Shown here: positions 31,226 to 34,596 of the stretch, one piece after another
Numbering within the stretch: the stretch's first letter is position 1
How the letters are laid out: each line of letters opens with the position of its first letter
Assembly (NCBI RefSeq): GCF_005081185.1
Contig: NZ_CP034870.1
Span: forward strand, 277,896 to 341,895
Source of the DNA: Buchnera aphidicola (Lipaphis pseudobrassicae)
Lineage (GTDB): Bacteria; Pseudomonadota; Gammaproteobacteria; Enterobacterales; Enterobacteriaceae
DNA: 64,000 nt
Direction of reading: 5' to 3'
Made by a program: the position numbers and the translations under genes
Notes under the pieces: generated by a model
Database searches by the model: none
Seen by the model: only the letters and a program-made list of their open reading frames with translations
Told to the model about the DNA's origin: nothing

Positions 31226-33790
31226 ATGCAAAAATCTCTTGTTATTGTTGAATCGCCAACAAAAGCAAAAACTATAAATCAATATTTAGGATGTAAATAT
31301 ATAGTTAAATCTAGTATAGGACACGTACGAGATTTACTTGTTAGAAAATTTAATAAAAAATATAAAACAAAACAGTCTATTTCACAGTCTAGTGAAAAAG
31401 ATGACTTAATGTATCAGATAGGAATCAATCCTTATAATAATTGGAAAGCTGAATATCATATTTTACCTGGTAAAGAAAAAATTGTTTCTGAATTAAAAAA
31501 TATTGCTGATACAGTAGATCATATATATTTAGCTACGGATTTAGATCGAGAAGGAGAAGCTATAGCCTGGCACTTAAAAGAGGTTATTGGAGGAGATCCT
31601 TCTAAATTTAAACGTGTAGTATTTAATGAAATTACAAAAAATGCTATAAAAAAAGCATTTAACAATGTAAGTCATATAAATATGTATCGAGTAAATGCTC
31701 AGCAAACACGTAGATTTATGGATCGTATTGTAGGCTATATGATATCACCTTTATTATGGAAAAAAGTTTCTAGAGGTGTCTCTGCAGGACGAGTTCAATC
31801 AGTAGCAGTTCGCATAATATCAGAACGTGAACATGTTATAAAAAATTTCGTACCAGAAGAATACTGGAAATTAAGCATATCTCTTTTTTTTCAAGAAAAG
31901 AAAAGTATTATTTTAGATGTTACTCATTATCAAAATAAAATATTTCGTCCAATGAATAAAGAGGAATTAGATTTATATATACAGATAATTAAAAAATCTA
32001 ATTTTACCGTGAAACATCGTGAAGATAAAATATTTTTTAAAGAACCACCAGCTCCTTTTATAACTTCTACATTGCAACAATCATGTAGTATTGATTTAGG
32101 TTTTAGTGTAAAAAAAACAATGTTTTTAGCACAAAAATTATATGAAGAAGGCTATATAACTTATATTCGTACTGATTCCACTTATATCAATGAGAATGCT
32201 GTTAAAACAGTTAGAACATACATAAAACAACATTATGGTGATAGATATATACCTATAGAACCTAATACTTATTGCAATATACAATATTCTCAAGAAGCCC
32301 ATGAAGCTATCCGACCATCTAACATTAAAACAACCAATATAAACAATAGTAATTTAAATTTAGATGCTCAAAAATTATATACACTTATTTGGAGTCGATT
32401 TGTAGCTTCTCAAATGTCACCAATGAAATATCAATCTAGTACAGTTGTAATTATAGCAAATGAATTTAAATTAAAAAAAATTGAAAAAATAATAGTTTTT
32501 AAAGGTTGGATGAAAATTTTAAAAGAAGAAAAAAATATAGTATCTGAAATTTCTTCGCTAAAAATAGGAAATTTATTATTTTTTAATAAAGCTACATCTG
32601 TACAAAAATTTACTAAACCTTTACCTCGTTTTAATGAAGCTTCTTTAGTTCGTGAATTAGAAAAAAAGGGTATTGGAAGACCTTCTACTTATTCTACAAT
32701 TACATCGAAAATACAAGAAAAGGGGTATGTAAAAATAAAAAAAAATCAATTATATGCAGAAAAAATGGGTGAAATTATTACCATTCGATTGAAAAAAAAT
32801 TTTAGCAATCTACTCGACTATAATTTTACTGCTCGTATGGAAAAAAATCTTGATAAAATAGCTGAAAATAAAATTGAATGGAAGAAAGTTCTTAATTCTT
32901 TCTTTAAAGATTTTTCTAAAAGATTAGAACAAGCTAAAAAAAAACCAGAAGAAGGAGGTATGGAACCAAATACTATTGTTATGACATCAATTAAATGTCC
33001 TATATGTTATAAAAAAATGGGAATAAAAAATGCAATTACTGGTGTTTTTTTAAGTTGTTCGGGATATGATGCTGATCCTAAAAAACGTTGTAAAAAGACT
33101 ATAAATTTAACTTCATTAAATGAATTTAAAAATAACAAAAAACAGCAATTAATAGAAAAAATTCATCGTTGTAAAGAATGTAAAATGACTATGGATAGTT
33201 ATTTTATTAATAATGAAATGAAAATACATATTTGTATTAATAATCCTAGTTGTTTTGGTTATACATTAGAAAAAGGAGTTTTTAATAGTCCTATTTATTT
33301 ATCTGAGGTAATTCAATGTGAAAAATGTTATAATGATATGATATTGAAAACTAGTAGATTTGGAAAATTTTTTCTCTGCATTAAAAAAGATTGTAAAAAT
33401 ACAAGAAAAGTTTTAGCTAATGGTGAAATATCAGATCCAAAACTAGAACCTATTCCTTTTCCGGAATTATTATGTACAACATCGAATGCATCATTTGTTT
33501 TAAGAGAAGGAACATCTGGTATTTTTTTTGCTGCCAATACTTTTCCTAAATCTCGTGAAACTAGATCTCCTTTCGTAGAAGAACTTGCTAGATTTCAAAA
33601 TTTACTACCAGAAAAAATACGATATTTAGCCAGTGCTCCTATAACTGATAACAAAGAAAATAAAACTATAGTGTGTTTTAATAGAAAAACAAAACAATAC
33701 TATATTGGTTCTAAGAAAGAAGGAAAATTTACAGATTGGTTAGCTATATTTGTTGATAATAAATGGCTTGTTATTAATAAAAAAAAGTAA
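31226..33790 (+). CDS. topA: DNA topoisomerase I (type IA)
   Basis: Relaxes negative supercoils and limits R-loops. The 854 residues match E. coli (865). The TOPRIM domain opens with VIVESPTKAKTI and has TDLDREGEAIAWHL. The active-site Tyr is in YITYIRTDSTYI. TRRFMDRIVGYMISPLLWKKV is conserved. Three C-terminal four-Cys zinc modules are still intact (CPICYKKM…C…C, CKECKMTM…C…C, CEKCYNDM…C…C), followed by the DNA-binding tail. The stop is two bases from the end of convergent suhB; in E. coli cysB follows instead. Confidence 0.97.
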   Translation: MQKSLVIVESPTKAKTINQYLGCKYIVKSSIGHVRDLLVRKFNKKYKTKQSISQSSEKDDLMYQIGINPYNNWKAEYHILPGKEKIVSELKNIADTVDHIYLATDLDREGEAIAWHLKEVIGGDPSKFKRVVFNEITKNAIKKAFNNVSHINMYRVNAQQTRRFMDRIVGYMISPLLWKKVSRGVSAGRVQSVAVRIISEREHVIKNFVPEEYWKLSISLFFQEKKSIILDVTHYQNKIFRPMNKEELDLYIQIIKKSNFTVKHREDKIFFKEPPAPFITSTLQQSCSIDLGFSVKKTMFLAQKLYEEGYITYIRTDSTYINENAVKTVRTYIKQHYGDRYIPIEPNTYCNIQYSQEAHEAIRPSNIKTTNINNSNLNLDAQKLYTLIWSRFVASQMSPMKYQSSTVVIIANEFKLKKIEKIIVFKGWMKILKEEKNIVSEISSLKIGNLLFFNKATSVQKFTKPLPRFNEASLVRELEKKGIGRPSTYSTITSKIQEKGYVKIKKNQLYAEKMGEIITIRLKKNFSNLLDYNFTARMEKNLDKIAENKIEWKKVLNSFFKDFSKRLEQAKKKPEEGGMEPNTIVMTSIKCPICYKKMGIKNAITGVFLSCSGYDADPKKRCKKTINLTSLNEFKNNKKQQLIEKIHRCKECKMTMDSYFINNEMKIHICINNPSCFGYTLEKGVFNSPIYLSEVIQCEKCYNDMILKTSRFGKFFLCIKKDCKNTRKVLANGEISDPKLEPIPFPELLCTTSNASFVLREGTSGIFFAANTFPKSRETRSPFVEELARFQNLLPEKIRYLASAPITDNKENKTIVCFNRKTKQYYIGSKKEGKFTDWLAIFVDNKWLVINKKK

Positions 33791-33792
33791 AT

Positions 33793-34596
33793 TTATATTG
33801 ATTTAATATAGCAGTTTCGTATTTTTTCAGTAATTAATCTAATAACTTTTGGGCTGCTAGTTAGATTACCAGAATGACAATTATTATTTTCATGTCCTCC
33901 TGTAAAATCACTAATTAAGCAACCCGCTTCTCTTACTTGTAATTTTCCTGCAATAAAGTTACTAGGATCTAGATTAAAATCAAATAAGCAATCTATTTTT
34001 CCAGCAGCAACATAAGCTAAATCAAGAACTGTTGAACCTGTTGATCTAAAAGAAATTCCACATAAAATTAATTTTTTATATATTTCGAAATAAGAAAATG
34101 ATTGATTAGCTAAATAGTCAGGTAAATTGACAGCAACTGTAGTATATTTTAAACTATTAATATTACTGCATCTTGTTCTATATCCATTTAGTTGAGATCC
34201 TTGTCCTTTTACAGCTGTAAATAAATCGTTTCTTATAGGATCATATATTACGGAAATTTCTGTCTTATTTTTTACGATAACTGCAATAGAAATACAAAAA
34301 TGTGGAAAATTTTTGATAAAGTTTTTTTTACCATCTAATTCATTAATAATCCAAATTGTAGCTTTTTCATTTTTTTTAAAAACAATATTGTGATTTTTAT
34401 TTAAAATAATATGTCTAGGATAAGATTTATAAATAATTTCACTAATAGTGTTATAGGTTCTATACATAATGTTTTTTATAAATAATTTATTTTTTTCTGT
34501 ATCTTCTTTTATAAATTTTTGTGTATCATAGTTTTGAATAATGATATTTCCTCCTTTACGTACTGCACGAATTGCAATATTTAACATGGGATGCAT
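33793..34596 (-). CDS. suhB: SuhB, inositol monophosphatase family, active-site residues lost
   Basis: Orthologue of E. coli SuhB by 267-residue length and near-identical regions: MHPMLNIAIRAVRK, FIKNFPHFCISIAV, YDPIRNDLFTAVKGQG and LDLAYVAAGKID. The metal site is not kept. WVIDPLDGTTNF reads WIINELDGKKNF (Asp84 to Asn, Pro to Glu, Thr-Thr to Lys-Lys). TEESG reads NKNHN (Glu67 lost). The Asp of RPWDF is Asn in DPSNF, and the Asp of TNVD is Met. Only the Asp of LDG remains. It is probably without phosphatase activity. E. coli SuhB also works with Nus factors in rRNA antitermination, a non-catalytic role that could explain retention. Confidence 0.92.
   Translation of the reverse strand: MHPMLNIAIRAVRKGGNIIIQNYDTQKFIKEDTEKNKLFIKNIMYRTYNTISEIIYKSYPRHIILNKNHNIVFKKNEKATIWIINELDGKKNFIKNFPHFCISIAVIVKNKTEISVIYDPIRNDLFTAVKGQGSQLNGYRTRCSNINSLKYTTVAVNLPDYLANQSFSYFEIYKKLILCGISFRSTGSTVLDLAYVAAGKIDCLFDFNLDPSNFIAGKLQVREAGCLISDFTGGHENNNCHSGNLTSSPKVIRLITEKIRNCYIKSI

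Follow-up and report, generated by a model that had tools for sequence, protein, structure and literature searches.

SuhB of Buchnera and other reduced-genome symbionts has lost its predicted catalytic residues and is probably kept as a Nus factor

The window analyzed here is a stretch of 64,000 nucleotides from Buchnera aphidicola (Lipaphis pseudobrassicae), spanning positions 277,896 to 341,895 of contig NZ_CP034870.1, and it carries a suhB gene (Table 1). The best PDB match of the encoded protein was E. coli SuhB (2qfl), aligned over residues 1 to 260 with an E value of 2.4e-68, and the Pfam Inositol_P profile (PF00459) matched residues 2 to 244 with an E value of 2.9e-37. The top NCBIfam model was PRK10757, at 261.8 bits and under its curated cutoff of 332; we take this model, titled inositol-1-monophosphatase, to be the SuhB model. 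Overall, the PDB and NCBIfam matches place the protein nearest to SuhB and not to CysQ, HisN, or other inositol monophosphatases, and CysQ was found in 33 of the 36 Buchnera genomes as a separate, weak second match. The gene at positions 31226 to 33790, presumably topA from its sequence, is convergent with suhB, and the ends of the two genes lie two bases apart (33790 and 33793).

Residues were numbered, and changes were scored, against SuhB of E. coli MG1655. As seen in this comparison, three of the four metal ligands are gone from the window protein (E67K, D84N, and D212N) and D87 is kept. The active site is also changed at D44M, the Asp of the TNVD motif, and at T89-T90, now Lys-Lys; T89 is presumably the threonine with a part in activating the nucleophilic water of inositol monophosphatases. 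Further changes were E68N, P85E, R184S, and L254T. All the active-site replacements listed in a preliminary description of this single gene (Glu67, Asp84, Asp212, the TNVD Asp, and the Thr-Thr pair) were recovered; the retained D87 and the changes at E68, P85, R184, and L254 lie outside that list. The predicted metal-dependent inositol-phosphatase site is lost, and we infer that the phosphatase activity of SuhB has been lost as well.

Table 1. Position of suhB in the window and of the codons for its altered or retained active-site residues
Feature	Position	Strand	Observation
suhB CDS, 267 aa, intact ORF	33793..34596	minus	ORF and homology
Codon of M44, replaces active-site Asp44 (TNVD)	34465..34467	minus	D kept in 0/36 Buchnera
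Codon of K67, replaces metal ligand Glu67	34396..34398	minus	36 Buchnera: E in 0, K in 31
Codon of N85 (E. coli D84), metal ligand gone	34342..34344	minus	N in 34/36 Buchnera
Codon of D88 (E. coli D87), sole metal ligand still present	34333..34335	minus	D in 35/36 Buchnera
Codon of K90 (E. coli T89)	34327..34329	minus	K in 33/36 Buchnera
Codon of N213 (E. coli D212), metal ligand gone	33958..33960	minus	36 Buchnera: N in 31, D in 2

The comparison was extended to suhB from 36 genomes of the genus Buchnera, to 73 reduced genomes (about 0.3 to 1.4 Mb) from a family sample of 246, and to 98 free-living-type genes. The last set combines 77 genes from a scan of named organisms (among the matches listed, at least 80 loci, none titled Buchnera) with 21 from the family sample, and some of its rows are host associated by title, for example, Gilliamella and Symbiopectobacterium. 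All four ligands (E67, D84, D87, and D212) were present in 93 of the 98 free-living-type SuhBs (among the matches listed), in contrast to none of the 36 from Buchnera and none of 64 from other reduced genomes; the counts were the same when D44 and T89 were added to make six residues. The five free-living-type exceptions (L230, L233, L235, L236, and L238) are all titled Colwellia and have Asn at position 212 and no change at the other five catalytic positions. Within Buchnera, D87 was the only ligand kept in 34 proteins, D212 was the only one in 1, and both were kept in 1. The other 64 reduced-genome SuhBs kept three ligands in 2 cases, two in 13, one in 34, and none in 15. The preliminary description had called for such an alignment of Buchnera and free-living SuhBs and had named an intact site in other Buchnera strains as evidence against a pseudoenzyme; we looked for one in all 36 genomes and found none, and the loss first noticed in one gene recurs across reduced-genome symbionts.

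Ten complete suhB genes came from genomes of 1.4 to 3.3 Mb, which we take, by size, as likely host restricted. All four ligands were kept in two of them, one of which lacks D44, and the site was broken in eight; predicted site loss is part-way in genomes of this size. Two of the ten (L338 and L343) have motifs as in Steffania and Gillettellia and probably come from the same genomes. The named host-restricted symbionts examined, Serratia symbiotica, Steffania, and Gillettellia, all had broken sites among the matches listed, with E67, D87, and D212 gone in Serratia symbiotica. Left out of the counts were two disrupted suhB copies (L347 and L348), two loci resembling cysQ in genomes that have no suhB (L128 and L129), and two short extra matches in G048. 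Among the 73 reduced genomes, nine had no suhB: seven gave no match at all, and two gave only other family members, such as CysQ. In one of the latter two, the 1.2-Mb genome G129, suhB is reduced to a short remnant. Table 2 of a published study, within the part of that paper available to us, places suhB under "Gene lost" for the Buchnera of Calaphidinae and Phyllaphidinae (PMC11188193).

The number of separate inactivations was estimated on a NusA tree of 104 rows, in which 9 of 30 Buchnera NusA loci were used and G136, G231, and G245 were left out. Counting by the Dollo rule, under which a lost ligand is never regained, gave a minimum of 18 inactivations on the resolved tree, 12 when forks under an SH-aLRT of 80 were collapsed, and 3 when those under 95 were collapsed. 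Unordered parsimony, which gave 4 changes, permits a dead site to be regained, and the Dollo count was therefore used in its place. The tree was built quickly, many of its forks are weak, and the composition of some of the symbionts is skewed, so that we claim recurrence and not a number. By their residues, the SuhB sites of reduced-genome symbionts have been broken independently and recurrently, with a count that depends on which forks are trusted.

The suhB gene itself is under strong purifying selection in Buchnera. Its reading frame runs from ATG to stop without internal stops in 36 of 36 genomes (256 to 269 codons), and dN/dS, estimated by maximum likelihood, was 0.03 to 0.11 in all 16 independent close Buchnera pairs. 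Each of these values was far below 1 by likelihood ratio, with dS near saturation in the most distant pairs. In addition, dN was lower for suhB than for cysQ in 12 of the 13 pairs having cysQ. Relaxed selection over the whole gene, the other finding that the preliminary description had set against its proposal, is the opposite of what these values indicate. Among other symbionts, 17 suhB pairs (two of which share a genome) all had dN/dS values below 1, with dS above 3 in eight. Where dS was no higher than about 1, four pairs gave 0.05 to 0.21, leaving aside the pair G104-G225 (genomes of 3.3 and 2.1 Mb), which showed the weakest constraint, 0.37. Serratia symbiotica suhB gave 0.08 to 0.10 against two other Serratia, which gave 0.05 against each other.

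The paralogue CysQ, which has the same catalytic layout, served as an internal control. Unlike SuhB, CysQ had the full set of six catalytic residues in each copy examined, 33 of 33 from Buchnera and 18 of 18 from other symbionts; the count leaves out G001, G018, and G020, the Buchnera genomes without a CysQ match, and the second matches of G256 and G237. Because this site is intact in the same genomes and in every copy examined, general AT-driven decay was rejected as an explanation for the loss in SuhB. Among the sites conserved in free-living SuhB, those least retained were D44, E67, G70, T89, D84, E68, T41, G74, and D38, which belong to the active site and its loops, and also R184. D87 is the exception among the active-site positions in being retained. 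Nearly everywhere kept were Y59, W81, N91, N136, R139, R141, L190, Y194, and E222. In a rank test over the 105 sites whose conservation in free-living SuhB is 95% or more, five catalytic sites were retained less than the others (P = 0.011 in Buchnera and P = 0.0009 in other symbionts); D212, whose conservation falls just under 95%, was excluded. Conserved acidic sites outside the active site (E48, E123, E205, and E217) were also changed in all Buchnera, and the Buchnera contrast is therefore not limited to catalytic residues. R184, which is 99% conserved in free-living-type SuhB, is replaced by Cys, Tyr, Ser, or Leu in 36 of 36 Buchnera and is kept in 12% of other symbionts.

SuhB acts as a Nus factor in E. 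coli, where it binds the AR2 domain of NusA and the boxA-boxC linker and boxC of the rRNA leader, helps NusB and NusE to join, and counteracts termination, as described in the accessible portions of two studies (PMC6614801; PMC4807359). According to the same portion of the former, phosphatase activity is not needed to relieve the effects of a suhB mutant (PMC6614801). The AR2 sequence of NusA was found in 36 of 36 Buchnera, the NusA match reaching residue 492 to 494 in 35 of them, and its core is conserved, with 59% identity to E. coli across the 30 of 36 loci that were aligned. In one genome, a frame change ahead of AR2 splits NusA (G026:C1:420436-421913), leaving residues 1 to 420 and 421 to 493 in separate frames; this may reflect slippage, a fault in the assembly, or an AR2 that is really separate. 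NusB was present in the three Buchnera genomes tested of the 36 (G000, G001, and G024). A NusB model was matched in 74 of 76 genomes searched, above the cutoff in 71. Seven of the nine reduced genomes lacking suhB had a match to this model, three of these being below the cutoff and one probably the related RsmB. That one, in G129, is sub-cutoff, lies inside a 456-aa frame, and is the only match in its genome, where suhB and nusB may have been lost together.

In Buchnera, the rRNA leaders were inspected at 20 of the 35 detected 16S loci and at 20 of the 36 detected 23S loci. Every one of them has the boxA core GCTCTTTAA, both the 20 leaders of 16S and the 20 of 23S, which is located separately, and the boxC core was exact in 19 of the 20 16S leaders. 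From boxA to boxC, the Buchnera 16S leader is close to that of E. coli rrnB. A boxA match of 10 of 12 positions or better arose by chance in 40 of 4000 base-shuffled 170-base 16S leaders, versus 20 of 20 real ones. The 23S leaders (L433 to L452) have a GGAAAACAAG stretch after boxA, resembling GGATCAAGC of E. coli rrnB, and a conserved tRNA-like stretch upstream of GGAAAACAAG, where E. coli has tRNA-Glu.

Taken together, Buchnera SuhB is very probably a pseudoenzyme that has lost its site and is kept under purifying selection for its part, as a Nus factor, in the transcription and folding of rRNA. By analogy with E. coli, a SuhB dimer within the Nus factor complex would bind both NusA AR2 and the part of the rRNA leader that lies between boxA and boxC, would help to load NusB-NusE so that RNA polymerase stays processive, and would, in the complex, chaperone the folding of rRNA. 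Genome reduction would lead to loss of the site again and again because the enzyme is no longer selected for and the transcription role still is. Several observations fit this explanation less well: Thr at the AR2-contact position 254 in most Buchnera, the loss of R184 and of acidic residues outside the active site in all of them, a NusA without AR2 in eight symbionts that have SuhB, and the absence of suhB from nine reduced genomes, most of which still match the NusB model, and, as listed in PMC11188193, from the Buchnera of Calaphidinae and Phyllaphidinae. The suggestion in the preliminary description that the gene may have been kept only for its role with NusA in antitermination gains support, by the same analogy, from the retained AR2, from NusB in the three Buchnera genomes, and from the boxA and boxC leaders.

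A dead SuhB might instead be kept for another moonlighting role, related to the ribosome, RNA, or RNA polymerase but not to rRNA antitermination, and a reason to consider it is that 8 of the 64 SuhB-bearing symbionts have a NusA without AR2, so that the AR2 contact cannot explain SuhB retention in those. The AR2-contact position 251 of SuhB, which is Lys or Arg in 36 of 36 Buchnera, shows no significant dependence on AR2 status in the other symbionts (Lys or Arg in 4 of 8 without AR2 versus 45 of 56 with it, P = 0.08, and in 15 of 23 AR2-bearing ones of similar divergence). L254 is also changed in Buchnera, with Thr at this contact position in 27 of 36; in E. coli, AR2 binding was lost in a variant with K251 and L254 mutated together, in the accessible text of PMC6614801. 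We nevertheless regard another moonlighting role as unlikely. The boxA before 16S and 23S is conserved, and the SuhB-binding linker and boxC of 16S are kept, together with boxA, within an otherwise diverged leader. Moreover, AR2 is dispensable for SuhB recruitment in E. coli when the RNA element is present, as stated in the part of PMC6614801 available. Finally, losses of suhB and of AR2 tend to go together, which is suggestive: AR2 is missing in 5 of 8 genomes without suhB versus 8 of 64 with it (P = 0.004), or 3 of 6 versus 6 of 40 by genera (P = 0.08), both uncorrected for kinship. NusA ends before AR2 in G165, G221, G198, G087, G216, G126, G157, G259, G094, G219, G136, G245, and G231, with open frames of 335 to 453 aa versus 495 aa in E. 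coli. In two 0.3-Mb genomes (G136:C1:225966-226976 and G245:C1:103097-104110), nusA has three in-frame TGA codons each and is otherwise open, and TGA might be read there as an amino acid.

The replaced motif of Buchnera SuhB is nearly fixed (N84 in 34, E85 in 35, D87 in 35, and K89 in 33 of 36), beyond what neutral drift alone would give, and it could be read as a new active site, in which the conserved N-E-L-D-G-K motif and K67 make up a repurposed pocket, metal independent or differently liganded, for catalysis or ligand binding. Such a pocket is very improbable, since the replacements differ in other symbiont lineages and the active-site loops are among the most variable parts of Buchnera SuhB (positions 38, 70, 209, and 211). 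Replacement of Asp by Asn and of Glu by Lys takes, in addition, single G-to-A steps, as expected under AT-biased mutation, and these dominate, with Lys in 54 of 92 changed E67 and Asn in 81 of 91 changed D84. The simplest reading is that AT-biased mutation gave the first changes once catalysis ceased to matter and that the core turn then remained under structural constraint. Ordinary decay of suhB caught in progress was rejected as extremely improbable. It would fit the absence of suhB from nine reduced genomes, the broken copies in two larger genomes (3.1 and 5.1 Mb), and the weak constraint on the pair G104-G225; it is contradicted by the frames open in every Buchnera, by the strong purifying selection, by a protein divergence usually below that of CysQ, whose site is intact, and by the fixation of the active-site loss across the genus. 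The preliminary description had likewise argued from the sparing of the rest of the gene that this was not random decay, and the conserved replacement motif bears this out.

Buchnera SuhB resembles E. coli SuhB (2qfl, 6ib7/6ib8, and 6tqn/6tqo) in nearly full-length homology and in the conserved residues of structural motifs, and the two share their context, that is, NusA with AR2, NusB, boxA leaders, and boxC before 16S. E. coli SuhB, however, has all metal ligands and a phosphatase activity reported in the available portions of PMC4807359 and PMC6614801, whereas the Buchnera protein lacks E67, D84, D212, D44, and T89. The family profile (PF00459) and the DG-x-x-NF motif frame are common to Buchnera SuhB and the inositol monophosphatase family, including CysQ. 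Pseudoenzymes kept for noncatalytic roles form a general class. Like these, SuhB here has lost catalytic residues with the rest under purifying selection; unlike in the general case, the site of one enzyme is lost in several lineages, with an intact-site paralogue as an internal control. That SuhB phosphatase activity is dispensable in E. coli is already known, from what could be consulted of PMC6614801. In our literature search, which covered part of the result lists and lay outside subscription papers and curated databases, no listing or passage reported that symbionts have lost the active site of SuhB, recurrently or otherwise.

We consider it likely that SuhB of enterobacterial insect symbionts has become a pure transcription factor through genome reduction, repeatedly and independently, and that the dead site of Buchnera has been refixed under a new structural constraint. 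This natural separation of function would show that the Nus role alone explains the retention of the gene. To the old question of whether SuhB phosphatase matters in cells, the E. coli mutants gave a laboratory answer; several lineages, with CysQ as the control, give an evolutionary one. Symbiont annotations and models that assign inositol-phosphatase reactions to suhB may be mistaken on this point. An inositol pathway in Blochmannia was built on a gene of the inositol monophosphatase family, either suhB or cysQ (PMC1360075), and a metabolic model of Buchnera dropped suhB as not connected (PMC2649895), both as given in the accessible parts of these papers. The results also suggest that the boxA-Nus-SuhB system of rRNA is under selection even where the 16S and 23S genes lie far apart.
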